From: Methylotenera sp.
GTDB taxonomy: Bacteria; Pseudomonadota; Gammaproteobacteria; Burkholderiales; Methylophilaceae
Direction: 5' to 3'
Assembly: GCA_020622105.1 (NCBI GenBank)
Contig: JAHRYP010000009.1
Location: 26,615-90,614, forward strand
DNA length: 64,000 nucleotides
Part shown: positions 18,225 to 33,969 of the stretch, in pieces
Numbering within the stretch: the stretch's first letter is position 1
How the letters are laid out: the number at the start of each line of letters is the position of its first letter
Translations under genes and position numbers: made by a program
The notes under the pieces: generated by a model
What the model was told of the DNA's origin: nothing
Database searches by the model: none
The model's input: only the letters and a program-made list of their open reading frames with translations

Positions 18225-19205
18225 ATGACTGCTAGCATACAAGTGCGCACTAGCGGACGTTTACATATGGGCTTTTTCGATCTGCACGGCGGCTTGGGGC
18301 GAAAATTCGGCAGCATAGGATTAAGCTTGGCTGAGCCTGCATTGCTTATTGAAGCGCAGGCTTCTAAACATCTGAATGTTACAGGCGAAGCATCAGTGCC
18401 GGGTACAGTGCTTGCAAAAGCTTCTGCTATTGCACAGCAATTGGCTACAAAACTGGACTTGGCTGGGGCGCTTGACCTTCATATCAGTGAGCATATCCCT
18501 GAACACGCGGGATTAGGCTCGGGGACACAGATTGCCCTCGCGGTAGGTTCGGCTATCAGCAATTTATATCATCTAGATTTAAATGCGCGCAAAATCGCGG
18601 AGCTCTCCGGGCGCGGCAGACGTTCCGGTATCGGCATTGCTGCGTTCGATCATGGCGGATTGTTAATTGATGGCGGGCGGGGTATTGCGGCTGATGCTAA
18701 TGCAGTGCCGCCTTTGCTCGCAAGATATCATTTTCCCGAAGAGTGGGCGATATTACTGATTTTTGATGCAACGCAGCCAGGTATTCATGGCGAGGAGGAA
18801 AAACTGGGCTTTAATCAGCTCCCGGTTTTCCCTGAGAGTCTGGCGGCGCATTTATGCCGACATGTGCTGATGCAGGCAATGCCTGCCATTGTCGAAAAAG
18901 ATTTAACGGCATTCGGACATTCCATACAAGTATTGCAGCAGCATGTGGGTGATTACTTCGCTCCGGTACAAGGCGGCCGTTACGCTAGTAAACTGGTAGG
19001 TGATGTGCTGCATTATCTGCAGCAAGCAGGAGTTGCCTGTTTTGGACAAAGTTCCTGGGGGCCAACTGGTTTTGCGATATTTGAAAACAGCACTACTGCG
19101 GAACAATATGTGCAGCAATTAAAAATTAAATTTACTGATCAAGCCTTGTCCTGGAGAGTCTGCAAGGCCAATAATCAAGGTGCAGAAATTAACGTGCAGG
19201 GGTAA
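18225..19205 (+). CDS. mptG: beta-ribofuranosylaminobenzene 5'-phosphate synthase family (H4MPT biosynthesis)
   Basis: RTSGRLHMGFFDLHGGLGRKFGSIGLSL, EHAGLGSGTQIALAVG, GRGRRSGIGIAAFDHGGLLIDGG. Confidence 0.92.
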   Translation: MTASIQVRTSGRLHMGFFDLHGGLGRKFGSIGLSLAEPALLIEAQASKHLNVTGEASVPGTVLAKASAIAQQLATKLDLAGALDLHISEHIPEHAGLGSGTQIALAVGSAISNLYHLDLNARKIAELSGRGRRSGIGIAAFDHGGLLIDGGRGIAADANAVPPLLARYHFPEEWAILLIFDATQPGIHGEEEKLGFNQLPVFPESLAAHLCRHVLMQAMPAIVEKDLTAFGHSIQVLQQHVGDYFAPVQGGRYASKLVGDVLHYLQQAGVACFGQSSWGPTGFAIFENSTTAEQYVQQLKIKFTDQALSWRVCKANNQGAEINVQG

Positions 19206-19303: not shown

Positions 19304-20215
19304 ATGGAAAAACCCAGCATTTTGCATTTGTTTACGGCAGCTAAAAATGCCAGCCCATTTGATGTCAATATGGCTTTTGACGCGGGTTTCGATAAAATTA
19401 TGCCGTACACTAATGTCGAATTGTCTGAAGTGGCAGGGCTGACGCAGGATGCGATCTTTTCGCGTAGCCCGTCAGGTGTAAAACGTGAAGGTGTTTTTAT
19501 TGGGGGGCGTGATATAGACCTCGCCATGCAGATGCTTCACGCTGCCAAGAATGCTATGTTTGCTCCATTTGCCTGCTCTGTATTCGCTGATCCTTCCGGA
19601 GCATTCACAACTGCTGCTGCAATGATAGCTAAGGTAGAAGCACACCTTAAAGCTAAGTTTGGTGAAGATTTAAACGGCAAAACACTGAGTGTGTTTGGCG
19701 CCACAGGGCCGGTAGGCGGCTGCGCTGCGATTATAGCTGCAAAACAGGGTGCAAATGTGCAATTGGTTGCGCACAATTCGCTTGCAAGAGTCGAAGCAAA
19801 AGCTCAGCTCTGGAATAGTGAGTATCAAATTAATCTACAAATAGTTGATGGCAGCACAGATGCGAAAAAATCTGACGTTCTGGCACAAGCCGAAATTGTC
19901 ATCTGTGCTGCTGCAGCTGGAGTGCAGGTGATTAGCCTCGAGCAGTTAACACAGGCCAAACGCCTGAAAATCGTCGCAGATGTAAATGCAGTTGCACCTA
20001 ATGGTGTACAAGGGGTGGATGTTAGCCATGACGGCGTGCAGGTTGCCAGTACCAATATTTATGGCATCGGTGCACTTGCGATCGGTCAGCTCAAATATGC
20101 AACCCAGCATCAGTTGTTAAAACAAATGCTGCCGCAAGATCAGGAAAAGCCTAAATATCTAGACTTTATGGCAGCATTCAATCTGGCACGCGAATTATCA
20201 AAAAATCAATACTGA
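19304..20215 (+). CDS. mtdB: NAD(P)-dependent methylene-tetrahydromethanopterin dehydrogenase
   Basis: FDVNMAFDAGFDKIMPYTNV, IFSRSPSGVKREGVFIGGRD, FGATGPVGGCAAIIAAKQGA. Confidence 0.9.
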   Translation: MEKPSILHLFTAAKNASPFDVNMAFDAGFDKIMPYTNVELSEVAGLTQDAIFSRSPSGVKREGVFIGGRDIDLAMQMLHAAKNAMFAPFACSVFADPSGAFTTAAAMIAKVEAHLKAKFGEDLNGKTLSVFGATGPVGGCAAIIAAKQGANVQLVAHNSLARVEAKAQLWNSEYQINLQIVDGSTDAKKSDVLAQAEIVICAAAAGVQVISLEQLTQAKRLKIVADVNAVAPNGVQGVDVSHDGVQVASTNIYGIGALAIGQLKYATQHQLLKQMLPQDQEKPKYLDFMAAFNLARELSKNQY

Positions 20216-21397
20216 TAATAGCACTATCGGCACGTCCGTTTGTTGAGGCTGCAGTTAAAGCTGGTTACGCCATATTCGCAATAGATGCATTCGCTGATGC
20301 ACAGACTGTAGCTTTGGCTGACAAGGCTATAACGGTTGCGTATGGCAGGCGGGGCTTTGATGCGGATGGGGTGTTGGCCGCTGTTGATACGCTGAACTTA
20401 AGCCAGTTTGCCGGATTTGTTTATGGCAGTGGTTTTGAGGCGCAGCCGGAGTTACTAGTCAAACTAGCTGCAAAGTTACCCCTGATCGGCAATTGTCCCG
20501 ACACTGTTGCAGCCGTTAAAACCCCAGCTGTTTTTTTTGCAGCATTACAGCAGCTGAATATTAATCATCCCGGCGTGTGTTATGCATATTCTGAAACGCA
20601 TGCAAACGATTATCTGATCAAGTTCGCCGGAGGTAGTGGCGGCATGCATATACGTTCATCTAACTCGCACGCCTGTTTGCTTGCGGAGGATTATTACCAG
20701 CAGAAAATTAATGGGCGGCCGGTGTCATTGTTATTTTTCGCTGATAAGCATCATATTGAAGTGATTGGTTTTAATGAGCAGTGGTTGAGTCCATCAGTGG
20801 TTGCTCCATTCCGTTATGGCGGGGCTGTAAGCAATGCGGAATTCTCGCCCAGTGTTCAGCAGCAGTTGATTAATGCCGCGCAAAAATTGACCAGAATTTG
20901 GTTTGCTGGGTCTTAATAGTCTGGATGCAATTGTGGATGAGACTGCCAATCCAGCCTGGGCGGATGGTCAGGTGTTTGTTCTGGAAATCAACCCCAGGTT
21001 AAGTGCAACGTTCGATTTATATAGCTGTGCCAAACGCAACCTATTTAAGCGGCACGTTGACGTTTGTTTAAATCAATATGGCTTGAATCAAAATGCAGCC
21101 TATCAATTGGATCTAAAGTGCAAAGCGCATGCAATCGTTTATGCTGCGGAACAAATAGCATTGTCAGCGCCTGTGCTGTGGCCGGACTGGGTCATAGATA
21201 CTCCACAGTTGAGTGAAAAGATACTCAGGATATCTAACGGCGAGCCTGTTTGTACGGTGCTTGCCTATGCTGATAGTGCAGAAGCTGCAAAAAAAATAGC
21301 GCAGAGTAGAGTTGAAATAATACAAAATTTATTACAATCACTTAATCAAGATTGTTGCACGGATGACTGCGTTAATATATCCGTGTACATCCACTAA
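20215..21397 (+). pseudogene. ATP-grasp protein of the H4MPT-linked C1 cluster (Orf5-like), frameshifted near 20894-20902
   Basis: Upstream in-frame IIALSARPFVEAAVKAGYAIFAIDAFADAQT precedes the ATG at 20314; LTRI continues in another frame as FGLLGLNSLDAIVDETANPAWADGQVFVLEINPRLSATFDLY. Confidence 0.75.
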
Positions 21398-21431
21398 TTA
21401 AAAAAATTTGGCAGCAAATAAAAGGATAACA

Positions 21432-22412
21432 GTGCAAAACATTCAGGCATCAGCATCATTAAAACAGCAAGCAAGTGTTAATCAGCTTGCGGCACCTTTA
21501 ATTAGTCAATTATTAGCGCAAGCAAATACGCTGCAGCTTGGCGTCTCGAAGCATGAATCCGGCTGTACTATTGTCGATGCAGGCATTCAACACGCGGGTA
21601 GCGCGGAAGCTGGCAGGCTGATTGCTGAAATATGTATGGGTGGCCTTGGTCGTGTTGCCTTGCAAGCTGATGACCGCTTTTCTGGCTGGACTGAGGCGGT
21701 TGCTGTGACTTCTACGTCTCCGGTGCTGGCTTGCCTTGCCAGCCAATATGCAGGTTGGGCATTGAGCCATGAAAAGTTTTTCTCATTGGGTTCTGGCCCG
21801 GCACGTGCATTGGCGCAGCGTGAAGATTTATTCAAAGAGCTGGCTTATGTTGATAGCGCGAGCAGTACTTGCATTGTGCTGGAAACTGACAAAGTGCCCC
21901 CGCTACAGGTGATTGAAAAGATTGTGCGTGATACCAAAGTGACACCTGAAAATCTAACAATTATTCTAACGCCAACCAGTAGTATTGCAGGTGTGGTGCA
22001 GATTGTTGGTCGCGTACTTGAAGTAGCGTTGCACAAAGCGCATACACTGCATTTTCCGCTGGAAAACATTGTCAGCGGTTCCGGCTTGGCTGTGCTGCCG
22101 CCGGTAGCTAAAGACTTTATGACGGCGATGGGACGCACCAACGATGCAATTTTGTTTGGTGGCTATGTGCATCTGCAAGTACGTGGCGACGATGCAGCTG
22201 CTGCAAAATTGGCTGCTGATCTGCCTAGTAGTGCTTCAAAAGATTACGGTAAAACCTTTGCCGAGGTATTCAAATTCTACGAAATGGACTTTTATAAGAT
22301 TGACCCCATGCTGTTCAGCCCTGCCAAAGTCACTATTACCAACGTAGATACTGGTCATGTATTTGAGGGTGGATATCTGAATGCGGATTTAATCAATCTT
22401 TCATTCTCTTGA
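21432..22412 (+). CDS. mch: methenyltetrahydromethanopterin cyclohydrolase
   Basis: VNQLAAPLISQLL, DAGIQHAGSAEAGRLIAEICMGGLG, SSTCIVLETDKVPP; GTG start at 21432 with AAAGGA upstream preferred over TTG at 21408. Confidence 0.93.
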   Translation: MQNIQASASLKQQASVNQLAAPLISQLLAQANTLQLGVSKHESGCTIVDAGIQHAGSAEAGRLIAEICMGGLGRVALQADDRFSGWTEAVAVTSTSPVLACLASQYAGWALSHEKFFSLGSGPARALAQREDLFKELAYVDSASSTCIVLETDKVPPLQVIEKIVRDTKVTPENLTIILTPTSSIAGVVQIVGRVLEVALHKAHTLHFPLENIVSGSGLAVLPPVAKDFMTAMGRTNDAILFGGYVHLQVRGDDAAAAKLAADLPSSASKDYGKTFAEVFKFYEMDFYKIDPMLFSPAKVTITNVDTGHVFEGGYLNADLINLSFS

Positions 22413-22431: not shown

Positions 22432-23340
22432 GTGCGCATTCCTATTTTTACTGACGATGCCGGCTGGCAGGGCGCCCAGCTCAAACAAGCTTTTGCCAAG
22501 CGCAGCGTAGAGGCGGTTTTTGTCTCGTTGCAGGATTGTGTCATCAATCTGGCACAGCAGATTCCAAATATTCAAATTCCGCATTTCGATACACTGCCGC
22601 CAGCTGCTTTTGTGCGCGGCGTTGCTGGCGGCACCTTGCAGCAGGTGATTACACGCCTGAATGTGCTGCATATGCTGACGCGGCAGGGTGTGCGTATCTA
22701 CAACCAGGCGCAGGCGATTGAGCGCACTGTAGATAAAGCTATGACCAGTTTTTTGCTGCGTATGCATGGCGTGGCTACTCCTGCCACCTGGGTGTGCGAA
22801 TCAAGAGCGCACATGGAAACTATTCGCCAGCAGGCTGCAAGCGATGACCAACAGTTGGTGCTTAAACCTTTATTTGGCTCGCAGGGGCAAGGCGTACGTA
22901 AACTGTTGCACAGTGAACCTTTGCCAGTGCCTATGCAGCAGTATGTAGATGGCGTTTACTATCTGCAGCAATTAATTGAGACTGCAGATAAGCCACATGA
23001 CTATCGCGTATTCGTGATTGGCGGCAAGGTGGTTGCTGCGATGAAACGTCAGGGTGAAAGCTGGGTTAATAACGTGGCGTCCGGTGGACGCTGTGAAGCG
23101 ATACAGCCAAGCCGGCAGATGCAAGCTTTAGCTTTAAGCGCAGCGCAAGCGGTAGATATAGACTACTGTGGTGTGGATATTATTCAGGCTGCAAATGGTG
23201 ACTATTATGTGCTGGAGGTCAATAGTATCCCAGCATGGCGCGGCTTGCAGGGCGTGACGGATTTTAATATCGCAGAAGTACTGGTCGATGATTTTTTATC
23301 TCAATTGGAATCTTCAACCGTAAGATGCGTTCAGTCATAA
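22432..23340 (+). CDS. RimK-like ATP-grasp ligase of the H4MPT cluster (Orf7-like)
   Basis: RiMK-type ATP-grasp: LVLKPLFGSQGQGVRKL, DYRVFVIGGKVVAAMKR, YYVLEVNSIPAWRGLQGVT; between mch and a citG-like gene. Confidence 0.85.
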   Translation: MRIPIFTDDAGWQGAQLKQAFAKRSVEAVFVSLQDCVINLAQQIPNIQIPHFDTLPPAAFVRGVAGGTLQQVITRLNVLHMLTRQGVRIYNQAQAIERTVDKAMTSFLLRMHGVATPATWVCESRAHMETIRQQAASDDQQLVLKPLFGSQGQGVRKLLHSEPLPVPMQQYVDGVYYLQQLIETADKPHDYRVFVIGGKVVAAMKRQGESWVNNVASGGRCEAIQPSRQMQALALSAAQAVDIDYCGVDIIQAANGDYYVLEVNSIPAWRGLQGVTDFNIAEVLVDDFLSQLESSTVRCVQS

Positions 23341-23349
23341 GGAAGTGTA

Positions 23350-24198
23350 ATGGGCCTTAAAAAATTTACGTCTGCGCAATTAGCCAAAGCCTATAAAACA
23401 GCCTGCATGGCAGAGTTGCAGGCCTTAAAGCCAGGTAATGTACATGCATTTGCCGATGGTCACGGCATGACTGTTCATGACTTTATCAAGAGTGCAGAAG
23501 TGACGGCGGAGATTATTACCAGGCCGGATTTAAGTCTCGGGGAGCGCATTTTTTACGCGGCAGAAGCCACAAAAAATGTGGTCGGTCAAAATACCAATCT
23601 AGGCGTATTGCTGCTGTGTGCGCCTATTATAGAGGCGGCATTGCAACTGACTGACGGGCAGACATTAAGGCAGAGCCTACATGAGACCTTGTTGCAACTT
23701 ACTGTGAGTGATGCTGAGTATGTGTCAAGAGCGATTGTACTGGCGAGCCCCGGAGGTTTGGGAAGTGCTGCAGAATACGATGTGCGAGATATACCAAGTG
23801 TTAGCCTGCTGAAAATGATGAGTGCCGCACAAGGTAGAGACCGTATTGCATGGCAGTATGCCAATAACTTTTACGACATCATGGAGTTTGGTTGGCCTCG
23901 CTATGCTGATGCCATGATTAAGTGGGCAAACCCGGCATGGTCTGCCACAGCGTTATATCTGGCTTATTTGGCGCATTATCCTGATACGCATGTTGTACGT
24001 AAATTCGGTGACGCTTTCGCTGAAGGTTTAAAGCAGGAGGCTGCTGAGTTTGAACGGATGCACAGTGCAGCAGAGAATCCTAAGCTGGTACAAAAAAGGC
24101 TGCTAGACTGGGATGCCTCGCTTAAATTGCGTGGTATTAATCCGGGTACCAGTGCTGATCTGACTGTGGCAACGCTTCTGGTAAGCGAGTTGATATAG
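23350..24198 (+). CDS. triphosphoribosyl-dephospho-CoA synthase (CitG/MdcB) family protein
   Basis: CMAELQALKPGNVHAFADGHGMTVHDFIKSAEV, GQNTNLGVLLLCAPI, ASPGGLGSAAEYDV; no citrate lyase or malonate decarboxylase genes nearby. Confidence 0.82.
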   Translation: MGLKKFTSAQLAKAYKTACMAELQALKPGNVHAFADGHGMTVHDFIKSAEVTAEIITRPDLSLGERIFYAAEATKNVVGQNTNLGVLLLCAPIIEAALQLTDGQTLRQSLHETLLQLTVSDAEYVSRAIVLASPGGLGSAAEYDVRDIPSVSLLKMMSAAQGRDRIAWQYANNFYDIMEFGWPRYADAMIKWANPAWSATALYLAYLAHYPDTHVVRKFGDAFAEGLKQEAAEFERMHSAAENPKLVQKRLLDWDASLKLRGINPGTSADLTVATLLVSELI

Positions 24199-29060: not shown

Positions 29061-29087
29061 AAAGCCCGGCAACTGTCGGGCTTTTTT
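29061..29087 (+). terminator. rho-independent terminator after phi, abutting the stop of the convergent hisA-like gene
   Basis: AAAGCCCGGCaactGTCGGGCTTTTTT. Confidence 0.85.
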
Positions 29088-29787
29088 ATTGGTACACGTT
29101 CTTGATCTTATCGGCTGATATTTGCTTGCTATGAAGTGCACTGGCAAGCAATACGCCATAAATACCCAGTTGTTTTAATGTGCTTATATCATCAATATTG
29201 CGTACTCCACCGGCTGCGTAAAGATTAAATTCTTTACTATAGCGTTTGAATTTTTCTAACAACTCCAGGTTTGCGCCTTGGTTCGCGCCCACTTGTGCCA
29301 GTGACATCAGTATTACATTTTCAGGCCAAAGATCAGTATTGGTGTGTAAATCGGCAAAGCCTAAGAAACCAGACTGATTGCTATCGAGTGACAGTATGAA
29401 GTTTTTGTTTAAGTAAGCGCTGATTTCGCCTAAGTCATGTGTAGAGGTGATGCTTTCACTGCCAATCACATGTGTCAGCTTAAGGTTGTTCCATAAACGC
29501 AGATGGTTTGCATTTTTGATGCCTGCATCTAACCAAATTTCAAGTGCAGGGTATTGTTCCTGAATATATTTAATAATAGCTGCATGATTGCCTTGCCCTG
29601 TAATAGCATCAAGATCAGCGATATATATGCGTTCAAATGGGTATAATTCTAATAGGGCGTTAATGACGTCAATGGGCTCGCTGGATTTGCATAATGCAGA
29701 TTGAATCGGCTGATAATTGCTTCGATCACCCATTTTGGCATGTACGACCATGCCGTTTAATAAATCAATTACAGGAATTAATTGCAT
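29086..29787 (-). CDS. HisA/HisF-like TIM-barrel protein of the C1 cofactor cluster (function unassigned)
   Basis: MQLIPVIDLLNGMVVHAKMGDRSNYQPI resembles the HisA N-terminus; YIADLDAITG, AAGGVRNIDDISTLKQLGIYGVLLASALH; no other his genes in the window. Confidence 0.85.
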   Translation of the reverse strand: MQLIPVIDLLNGMVVHAKMGDRSNYQPIQSALCKSSEPIDVINALLELYPFERIYIADLDAITGQGNHAAIIKYIQEQYPALEIWLDAGIKNANHLRLWNNLKLTHVIGSESITSTHDLGEISAYLNKNFILSLDSNQSGFLGFADLHTNTDLWPENVILMSLAQVGANQGANLELLEKFKRYSKEFNLYAAGGVRNIDDISTLKQLGIYGVLLASALHSKQISADKIKNVYQ

Positions 29788-30844
29788 CATCGAACAGAAT
29801 AAAAAATTATTGGTCTGTGAGTTTATCACTGGCGGCGGACTCAGTGCAGAGGCTTTGCCGGAATCTTTGGCGAAAGAAGGCATATTAATGCGCGATGCCT
29901 TGTTGCGTGATTTAGCTGAGTTAAACCGGTTTGATATTATCACCATGCATGATGTCAGGCTGGTGCCGCCAATTCAGGCTAAGCAGAGCATTGCGGTTGA
30001 AGCTGGCAAATTTAAAGCGTGCTTTACAGAGGTACTCAGTCAGGTTGATATGGTCTGGTTGATTGCACCAGAGAGCGAAGGCACCTTACTGGAATTGAGC
30101 GAGCAATGTTATGAGGCAGAAAAGCTTGAAAATGGCCCTGTCTTTCTGGGCTCCGGTTTTGATGCAATGTTAACGGGCACAAGTAAAACGCTATGTTTCG
30201 AAGCGCTACAGGCAGCTAATATTCATACCTTGCCCGTGCATGCCGGTGAAGATTTAATACAGCCATCTTATTATGATGCGTTGTGCAAATTGAATATTCC
30301 AAAGTGGGTGGCTAAGCCGGAGGATGGAGCAGGTTGTGACGGGATCAGGATTTTTGATTCTTTAGAAGATTTGAAAGCATGGATAGCGCAGGATGAGCGC
30401 TATTTAGATTATTTAGCACAGCCCTATCAAGCAGGTGAAGCCGCTAGTTTTTCCATGCTGTGTCGTAATGGCAAGGCCTGGTTGTTAAGTTGTAATCAGC
30501 AGCATATTGTGAATGACGGTAGTCAGTTTAAGTTAAACGGAGTCACGATAAACGGCATGTCGGTTTATTGGCAGAAGTTTGAAACGATTGCCAGAAAAGT
30601 TGCCAGGATGCTGCCGGATGCGCTGGGCTATATTGGTGTAGATCTGATTGTGGATACAGTAAATAATAAAATTTATGTTTTAGAAATCAACCCGCGTTTA
30701 ACTACAAGTTACGTGGCTTTACATGATGCACTCAATTACAACCCTGCCAAACTGATTCTGGATTGCGTATTAAACGATAAATTTGATATGCCTAGTTTTT
30801 CAAAAGGCAGCTTATTGCAAAACCAGGTTGAAGTTAAGTTATGA
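29717..30844 (+). CDS. ATP-grasp protein, tyramine-glutamate ligase (MfnD)-like
   Basis: CEFITGGGLSAEALPESLAKEGILMRDALLRDL, WVAKPEDGAGCDGIRIF, YIGVDLIVDTVNNKIYVLEINPRLTTSYVAL; exact start uncertain (see findings). Confidence 0.78.
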   Translation: MLRSPILACTTMPFNKSITGINCIIEQNKKLLVCEFITGGGLSAEALPESLAKEGILMRDALLRDLAELNRFDIITMHDVRLVPPIQAKQSIAVEAGKFKACFTEVLSQVDMVWLIAPESEGTLLELSEQCYEAEKLENGPVFLGSGFDAMLTGTSKTLCFEALQAANIHTLPVHAGEDLIQPSYYDALCKLNIPKWVAKPEDGAGCDGIRIFDSLEDLKAWIAQDERYLDYLAQPYQAGEAASFSMLCRNGKAWLLSCNQQHIVNDGSQFKLNGVTINGMSVYWQKFETIARKVARMLPDALGYIGVDLIVDTVNNKIYVLEINPRLTTSYVALHDALNYNPAKLILDCVLNDKFDMPSFSKGSLLQNQVEVKL

Positions 30845-31887
30845 CGCGTAATTGTATCGGTTGGGATATAGGCGGGGCACATTTAAAAGCAGTTCTACTC
30901 AATATGGATGGGCAAGTGCTGGCTGCTACGCAGGTATATTGCCCACTATGGCGTGGCTTAAGTGAACTGGAAATTGCTATCGACAAAATTCTGCAGGAAT
31001 TTAATGCGGATCAGCATGCTGTTACGATGACAGGAGAGCTTGCAGATATTTTTGCTAGCAGGCGCGATGGTGTCATGCAAATTGCAGCCACATTAGCTGC
31101 AAAACTTCATGGCGAGGTGCGTTACTACGCCGGCAGATATGGTTTTGTAAATAAAGATGCAGTTAAAGAGTATTGGCTGGATATCGCGTCAATGAATTGG
31201 CTGGCAAGTGTCGAATATGCGGCACGTAAAGCAGCTAAAGCACTGTTTGTTGATATTGGCAGTACAACGACTGATATTGCTTTGATTGATAATGCAAACC
31301 CTCAGATTAAAGGTTTTACTGACGCAACACGCATGCAGTGTGATGAGCTGGTTTATACCGGCGTAGTGCGTACGCCGCTGATGGCAATGGCACAAAAGAT
31401 TTCGTTTGCAGGGCAAATGACCAATGTTGCGGCAGAATATTTTGCTACTGCAGCGGATGTTTATACATTAACAGGTGACCTGAATCCAGCTGAAAATATG
31501 GCAGAGACAGCAGACGGTGCAGACAAGACAATTCAAGCCTGTGCCTGCCGTATTGCACGTATGATAGGCTGCGATGCTGATGATGCACCATTAGCGTCAT
31601 GGGTTGAATTGGCTAGCTCTTTTAAAAAAGTGCAGCTTGAACAAATCAGACAGGTACTGTTAAAGCAAATGGCTTTGCTGAAAGACTGCTTGGGATTGCA
31701 GTTAATCGGGGCAGGTGCAGGCGCTTTCTTGGTAGCCGAGCTGACACTGAAGCTTGATCTGGAGTATTGCCCTGTTTCTGACTTTATTACAGGGTTTGAT
31801 AAAGATGCTGTAGACATGGCTGCCGTTTGCTTCCCGGCTTATGCTGTGGCTTATTTAAGTATTAAAGACTCAGGAGTTTTTGCGTGA
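30841..31887 (+). CDS. hydantoinase/oxoprolinase-like ATPase of H4MPT/methanofuran cluster (MfnF-like)
   Basis: IGWDIGGAHLKAVLL, ALFVDIGSTTTDIALI; 4-nt overlap with preceding ATP-grasp gene. Confidence 0.82.
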   Translation: MTRNCIGWDIGGAHLKAVLLNMDGQVLAATQVYCPLWRGLSELEIAIDKILQEFNADQHAVTMTGELADIFASRRDGVMQIAATLAAKLHGEVRYYAGRYGFVNKDAVKEYWLDIASMNWLASVEYAARKAAKALFVDIGSTTTDIALIDNANPQIKGFTDATRMQCDELVYTGVVRTPLMAMAQKISFAGQMTNVAAEYFATAADVYTLTGDLNPAENMAETADGADKTIQACACRIARMIGCDADDAPLASWVELASSFKKVQLEQIRQVLLKQMALLKDCLGLQLIGAGAGAFLVAELTLKLDLEYCPVSDFITGFDKDAVDMAAVCFPAYAVAYLSIKDSGVFA

Positions 31888-33333: not shown

Positions 33334-33969
33334 TTGATGTGGGTAGTTAAATTAGGCGGCAGTTTACTCGGCTCACCAGAGCTTGCAAGATGGCTGGATA
33401 CATTAGTTAAAATCAGCGACGGTAAAGTGCTGATTGTACCTGGCGGTGGTATGTTTGCGGATGCCGTGCGCCAGGCGCAGGAAACTTCTCTGATTAATGA
33501 TGCCGTAGCGCATCATCTGGCGTTACTGGCTATGGACCAATTCGGTTTACTGTTGGCCGGGATGAATCCAGGTCTGGTGACTGCTAGCAGCGAGCTTGAG
33601 ATTGCAGAGCGTGGCTGGCAGCATCGTGGGATTGTCTGGTTGCCAAGCCGCATGGTGCTTGCTGATGAAAATATACCTAAAAACTGGCATGTTACATCTG
33701 ATAGCTTGAGTGCCTGGATCGCGAATAAAATCGGTTCTGAACATCTGGTACTGGTGAAATCCAAAGATCTGGCAGGCTATGCAAAAACAGCACCGATGGC
33801 GCTGCAAACACTTATAGCTGATGGACTGATAGATAGCGCTTTTGCTGAATTTGGTGCTAAGTCAAATGCGCAGATATGGATGCTGAATAAAGCAGATCAT
33901 CATGTGTTTGCGCAAGGTCTGAATCTTGGTAAGCTTAAAGAGCAGGCATTGCCTGTTAGTAAAGACTAA
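33334..33969 (+). CDS. amino acid kinase family protein (aspartate/glutamate/uridylate kinase; MfnE-like)
   Basis: WVVKLGGSLLGSPELARWLD, VLIVPGGGMFADAVRQ, HVTSDSLSAWIANKIGSEHLVLVKSKD. Confidence 0.82.
   Translation: MMWVVKLGGSLLGSPELARWLDTLVKISDGKVLIVPGGGMFADAVRQAQETSLINDAVAHHLALLAMDQFGLLLAGMNPGLVTASSELEIAERGWQHRGIVWLPSRMVLADENIPKNWHVTSDSLSAWIANKIGSEHLVLVKSKDLAGYAKTAPMALQTLIADGLIDSAFAEFGAKSNAQIWMLNKADHHVFAQGLNLGKLKEQALPVSKD

Follow-up and report, generated by a model that had tools for sequence, protein, structure and literature searches.

The window considered here, i.e., the whole 64,000-nucleotide stretch of Methylotenera sp. DNA that was analysed, carries a run of genes in the order mptG-mtdB-myfA-mch-myfB-CitG, with these and other pertinent features as listed in Table 1. 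The last gene of the run, which is the one of concern here, starts 9 bp past the stop of the preceding RimK-type ligase gene (myfB). It is an intact open reading frame of 282 amino acids, that is, with an ATG start, an AGGAAG-like ribosome site, and zero internal stops, the strand opposite being rich in stops. Its product matches the Pfam family CitG (PF01874) at 224 bits (E 3.9e-66) and over its full length (residues 12-278), so that an earlier, sequence-only reading of this DNA was right to call the protein CitG-like. The source genome contains no second PF01874 gene. Against the NCBIfam equivalogs CitG and MdcB the product scores just 25.6 and 24.3 bits, with cut-offs of 272.3 and 282.35. 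The gene's neighbours are genes of H4MPT and methylofuran synthesis or use rather than citCDEFX or mdcACDE/G. The earlier remark that no citrate lyase or malonate decarboxylase genes are present here stands as well, as no cit or mdc genes were found among the scanned window proteins, a scan which was limited to the window and did not take in the whole genome.

Table 1. Features of the window, with the evidence on which each assignment rests.
Feature	Position	Strand	Evidence
mptG, beta-ribofuranosylaminobenzene 5'-phosphate (RFAP) synthase	18225..19205	+	TIGR00144 200 bits, cut-off 113.5
mtdB, methylene-H4MPT dehydrogenase	19304..20215	+	Pfam Mpt_N 124.5 bits
myfA/orfY, ATP-grasp methylofuran ligase, in two reading frames	20205..21397	+	ORFs 20314-20916, 20903-21397
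mch, methenyl-H4MPT cyclohydrolase	21408..22412	+	TIGR03120 398 bits
myfB/orf5, RimK/MptN-like glutamate ligase of methylofuran	22432..23340	+	NF040720 MptN 206.8 bits, below cut-off 350
CitG-family protein (Orf7 type), predicted alpha-ribosyl transferase of (dephospho-)H4MPT synthesis	23350..24198	+	PF01874, model, tree
HisA-like Orf17 (methylofuran synthesis)	29086..29946	-	by eye from translation, no profile scan
MfnD-like ATP-grasp protein (Orf1)	29717..30844	+	NF040722 75.4 bits
MfnF homologue (Orf9)	30841..31887	+	TIGR03123 340.7 bits, NF040623 164 bits
MfnE homologue (Orf21)	33334..33969	+	NF040622 90.2 bits

Two of the entries in Table 1 require comment. The change of frame within myfA/orfY was placed near 20895-20905 by tblastn with intact relatives, and represents either a sequencing or assembly slip or instead a genuine frameshift. 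The ORF listed for Orf17 overlaps its neighbour, with the true start probably further in.

As judged from synteny with published clusters, the window gene is Orf7. That is, the published order is mch-orf5-orf7-fae-orf17, and Orf7 of the ‘archaeal-like’ H4MPT/methylofuran cluster of methylotrophs (Methylorubrum extorquens and others) occupies the same position, mch-orf5-orf7-fae (PMC3615186). An annotated Phyllobacterium cluster supports the same identification, running from mch through a RimK ligase, a ‘triphosphoribosyl-dephospho-CoA synthase’, fae, a HisA-like gene, and MfnF to DUF447, which is followed by DUF6513, a flavoprotein, dihydroneopterin aldolase, and MfnB. By this synteny, DUF447 is inferred probably to be Orf19 and DUF6513 to be Orf20. 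The sequence-only reading had placed the CitG-like gene directly behind mch and an ‘Orf7-like’ ligase. The position was correct; the label was not, as the ligase is Orf5, i.e., MyfB, and it is the CitG gene itself which is Orf7. According to those portions of PMC8141765 that were accessible, ligases of this MptN/RimK-like type, Orf5, have been renamed MyfB as the methylofuran polyglutamate ligase, an orf5 mutant accumulates short methylofuran, Orf17 has a role in methylofuran synthesis, and genes of the cluster are reported as essential for growth on methanol. Neither those portions nor other accessible papers state a function for Orf7. The RefSeq name given to Orf7 proteins, ‘triphosphoribosyl-dephospho-CoA synthase’, is very likely a misannotation. 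In Azospirillum and Phyllobacterium, H4MPT clusters are found on megaplasmids.

The distribution of Orf7-type CitG was profiled across 249 Pseudomonadota genomes, 25 of which carry PF01874, 12 mch, and 14 an mptG scoring over its cut-off. Orf7-type CitG and mch were found together in 12 genomes, either one without the other in 0 and 0, and neither in 237; none of the 237 mch-negative Pseudomonadota, that is, possesses an Orf7-type copy. Each of the 12 mch-positive genomes has exactly one such copy, no more than 9 kb from mch, and has mptG as well. The type is recognised by the motifs KPGNVH, NTNLG-like, PDxH/L..RK, and NPGTSADLT, which the window protein meets. The other 17 PF01874 copies, here termed ‘classic’, display instead KPGLV or KPALV, NTHRG or NTHKG, and SPGG.ADL, and those classic copies that were examined adjoin CitF, a citrate-type carrier, malonate decarboxylase subunits, MdcG, or an acyltransferase. 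Three Pseudomonadota genomes possess both types; in these the Orf7-type copy adjoins mch, and the classic copy is found at another locus. A further two have an mptG homologue over the cut-off, without mch or CitG, which perhaps is another C-glycoside synthase.

A wider scan, of 85,462 species, yielded 80 named loci. At the bacterial ones (alpha-, beta-, and gammaproteobacteria along with planctomycetes) the gene is accompanied by H4MPT or methylofuran genes in nearly all cases having enough flank, and of 14 named genomes of archaea and planctomycetes carrying Orf7-type CitG, 13 proved to have mptG. In a maximum-likelihood tree of 92 proteins, the root of which is not fixed, the 17 classic CitG/MdcB proteins form one clade (100/100), set apart by a branch 2.5 changes per column in length, with the window gene outside of it in another clade (100/100). 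All of the bacterial Orf7-type proteins fall within a single clade (100/100) amid archaeal sequences, beside those of Methanobacteriota (90/88), and this placement fits with an archaeal origin followed by one transfer to bacteria. With the same caveat as to the root, these sequence comparisons fit with Orf7 belonging to a branch of the CitG fold that came from archaea, one which would be dedicated to arylribitol pterins, i.e., H4MPT and its relatives.

Among archaea the profile was scored with an mptG threshold of 60 bits, which was my own choice. Of 110 Methanobacteriota genomes, 109 carry CitG and 108 carry mptG, with CitG in about 107 of the 108 mptG-positive ones. For Halobacteriota, 134 genomes have both, 2 mptG only, 3 neither, and 0 CitG only (CitG, that is, in 134 of 136 mptG-positive genomes). 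The 131 Thermoproteota include 62 with CitG, 54 with mptG, and 30 with mch, and CitG occurs in 51 of the 54 with mptG. Where mch is lacking, as in 101 of the Thermoproteota, 38 genomes nonetheless have both CitG and mptG, 0 have CitG only, 2 mptG only, and 61 neither (Fisher 9e-26); the control genome Sulfolobus acidocaldarius is of this sort, having CitG and mptG and no mch. Archaeal CitG often is unlinked to mch. From such co-occurrence it follows that CitG tracks mptG, the first committed enzyme of the cofactor, rather than mch or an operon. Members of a clade are not independent, so that p-values overstate the evidence, and MAGs are incomplete. The latter probably explains the genomes with mptG or mch in which CitG was not detected (8 Thermoproteota, 2 Halobacteriota, 1 Methanobacteriota).

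Certain archaea depart from this pattern in other ways. Eleven Thermoproteota have CitG and mch without a detectable mptG, whether due to missing sequence, to a divergent synthase, or to salvage. The CitG of Sulfolobus-like and some other Thermoproteota is divergent, with several copies appearing to lack the asparagine of NTNLG, and their substrate may differ. Sulfolobales do carry CitG, and to judge only from the titles of papers it is solely the arylribitol part of their pterin that has been described. Outside of the lineages profiled here, White is reported to have found a differently glycosylated arylribitol pterin, with a sugar other than ribose, in Thermococcales.

Among the neighbours of archaeal CitG is DUF447, which lies directly downstream at all 14 Archaeoglobi loci, at 22 of 30 loci from other Halobacteriota, and at all 10 further Halobacteriota loci, several of the latter being GC-rich, haloarchaea-like stretches. 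In mch-negative Thermoproteota, CitG and DUF447 are found within about 10 kb of mptG, mptA (TIGR00294), and an MptE-like pterin diphosphokinase, with some unrelated genes interspersed and no methanofuran genes. One Bathyarchaeota contig brings together CitG, DUF447, mptG, mch, and an MptN-like ligase. Across 30 Methanobacteriota loci, viewed with flanks of 1.5 kb, no linkage of CitG to DUF447 or pterin genes was seen. The expectation that this subfamily would follow mptG and mch rather than cit or mdc genes thus is borne out by the Pseudomonadota and by three phyla of archaea, among them lineages in which the genes are unlinked or mch is absent. The outcome which would have refuted the proposal, occurrence mainly in genomes lacking mptG and mch, is not what is seen: none of the 62 CitG-bearing Thermoproteota lacks both. 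That same co-occurrence, along with gene context, upholds the suggested role in H4MPT cofactor assembly so far as membership in the pathway is concerned. There can be very little doubt, that is, that Orf7-type CitG belongs to (d)H4MPT biosynthesis.

What Orf7 would do within that pathway must be approached by way of its relatives. CitG (TIGR03125) and MdcB (TIGR03132), the ATP:dephospho-CoA triphosphoribosyl transferases, share with Orf7 a fold and a family (PF01874), invariant E/K/N/G/D residues, and PG..AD. Orf7 differs from them in being just 19% identical, in forming a separate clade, in possessing an extra helix (148-165), in lacking cit/mdc neighbours, in its distribution among genomes, and in having NTNLG-like and NPGT in place of the NTHRG and SPGG motifs. 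An AlphaFold model of the window protein, built with 52 relatives, is almost all-helical with a pLDDT of 96; that of a classic type, from a shallow input of 8 sequences, reached 82. Profile-profile comparison joins the two types with a probability of 99.6 (E 7e-25). Eleven residues (E22, K27, V31, S48, N81, G85, D212, P265, G266, A269, D270) are shared by at least 93% of the Orf7-type proteins and by every, or almost every, classic CitG/MdcB protein, and others are specific to Orf7, i.e., N30, F45, P92, D121, D164 (within the inserted helix 148-165), D255, and N264. The simplest reading of these alignments, in the absence of any spatial check, would be of a shared ribosyl-transfer core combined with a changed acceptor pocket. 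The window model has a single significant PDB match, 3h9p of Archaeoglobus fulgidus (Foldseek E 1e-5, TM 0.60/0.76), which comes from an organism possessing H4MPT, shares about 21% identity with the window protein, displays the subfamily motifs NxHFG and NPGTIADLT, and is titled merely ‘putative triphosphoribosyl-dephospho-CoA synthase’. Orf7 would be a functional variant within the known CitG family, with neither the fold nor the system being new.

Biological methane formation depends on H4MPT, as does formaldehyde oxidation in most methylotrophs. The mptG product makes the first ribosyl bond of H4MPT, a C-glycoside. In the completed cofactor, the 5-OH of the deoxyribitol bears an alpha-ribofuranosyl unit as well. 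To my knowledge several steps of H4MPT synthesis lack a known enzyme, this second ribosyl transfer among them, and I know of no enzyme that has been assigned to it. In the CitG reaction, the 2'-OH of dephospho-CoA becomes linked to ribose from ATP by an alpha-glycosidic bond, and adenine is released. Orf7 is the protein of the mptG/mch co-occurrence profile whose family chemistry fits the missing step. As a separate branch which travels with H4MPT genes, it probably performs the attachment of the second ribose. This assignment of alpha-ribosyl transfer to ribitol is thought likely, resting as it does on analogy with CitG chemistry and on elimination within the pathway, without activity data. 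A literature search covering 5.39 million papers turned up no link between CitG and methanopterin, though key older papers lay outside of that search; seven unknown methanopterin proteins have been counted (PMC3087415).

As proposed, Orf7 would bind a ribosyl donor, whether ATP, as CitG does, or PRPP. The acceptor would be the 1-(4-aminophenyl)-1-deoxy-D-ribitol unit, either on its own or after attachment to the pterin. The terminal 5-OH of this ribitol would attack the donor ribose at C1 and, were ATP the donor, the N-glycoside would undergo inversion. The base or pyrophosphate would then leave, giving rise to an alpha-ribofuranosyl group as its 5-phosphate or 5-triphosphate. Bacteria would subsequently strip the phosphate(s), resulting in dephospho-H4MPT, with methanogens adding hydroxyglutarate instead. 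As to the donor, opinion here is evenly poised between ATP and its alternative, PRPP: ATP fits the family, and simple inversion would yield the alpha product, and PRPP fits the published scheme, in which a second PRPP, not ATP, is drawn at this step (PMC3334880). More tentative still, and on the whole doubtful, is the idea that ATP might be used exactly as by CitG, i.e., with adenine departing and a 5-triphospho-alpha-ribosyl group left on the ribitol as an activated intermediate. Methanogens then might link it to 2-hydroxyglutarate as a phosphodiester, pyrophosphate being lost, which would carry the logic of CitX/MdcG over to a small-molecule coenzyme, with bacteria hydrolysing the triphosphate to reach dephospho-H4MPT. 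Were that so, the published scheme would be mistaken as to its second PRPP, and citrate lyase and malonate decarboxylase would have been either the recipients or the source of this module.

As profile and context speak to membership in the pathway and not to a step, Orf7 could act elsewhere in H4MPT synthesis, for instance in arylamine formation, ring opening, or dephosphorylation, with the CitG fold applying a different chemistry to the same nucleotide-like substrates. Its own conserved residues and inserted helix would allow for a changed reaction, and the archaeal pairing with DUF447 could point toward a coupled reductive step. The CitG-shared residues all are retained, however, which suggests a conserved core chemistry, and no other step after mptG that I know of transfers ribosyl or splits a nucleotide. 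This possibility accordingly is viewed as improbable, though not one to be set aside. A role in methylofuran (methanofuran) synthesis, like that of neighbouring myfA, myfB, orf17, mfnF, and mfnE, is suggested by the window alone, where the gene sits amid methylofuran genes and directly behind myfB. Methylofuran nevertheless contains no ribose or glycosidic bond, and Azospirillum has mptG-mtdB-mch-CitG with no myfB in between. CitG, moreover, is inherited together with mptG both in mch-negative Thermoproteota and in genomes of a haloarchaea-like kind; in some of those Thermoproteota its companions are mptA, mptE, mptG, and DUF447, not mfn genes. Given that profile and those pterin-gene clusters, the methylofuran role is rejected as highly improbable. 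Lastly, PF01874 membership and the RefSeq name on relatives are what would make of Orf7 a true triphosphoribosyl-dephospho-CoA synthase, serving some unrecognised acyl-carrier lyase or decarboxylase, which is barely credible and is rejected given scores about a tenth of the equivalog cut-offs, placement outside of the long-branched CitG/MdcB clade, replaced motifs, cit/mdc genes flanking the checked classic copies and never the Orf7 type, and the separate locations of the two types where they coexist.

With alpha-ribosyl transfer as the favoured assignment, a widely misnamed family, which almost all of the sampled methanogens possess, becomes a specific candidate for the second ribosyl transfer, and the solved structure 3h9p gains a likely pathway. 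Should the enzyme be confirmed, it might serve as a methanogen-specific inhibitor target.

DUF447 is flagged as well, as a linked second candidate. It has a flavin-reductase-like fold, with structures 2iml, 2nr4, 2ptf, and 3b5m all uncharacterised, and perhaps is an H4MPT-synthesis enzyme catalysing a reductive step. It is found also inside bacterial H4MPT clusters. Haloarchaea are said to be without methanopterin-specific enzymes (PMC8305020); haloarchaea-like genomes (7 Halobacteriota) keep mptG, CitG, and DUF447, and may make an arylribitol pterin. Five mch-negative Thermoproteota with a CitG-DUF447-mptG-mptA-mptE neighbourhood are candidates for possessing a modified-folate pathway that lacks the C1 branch of H4MPT.
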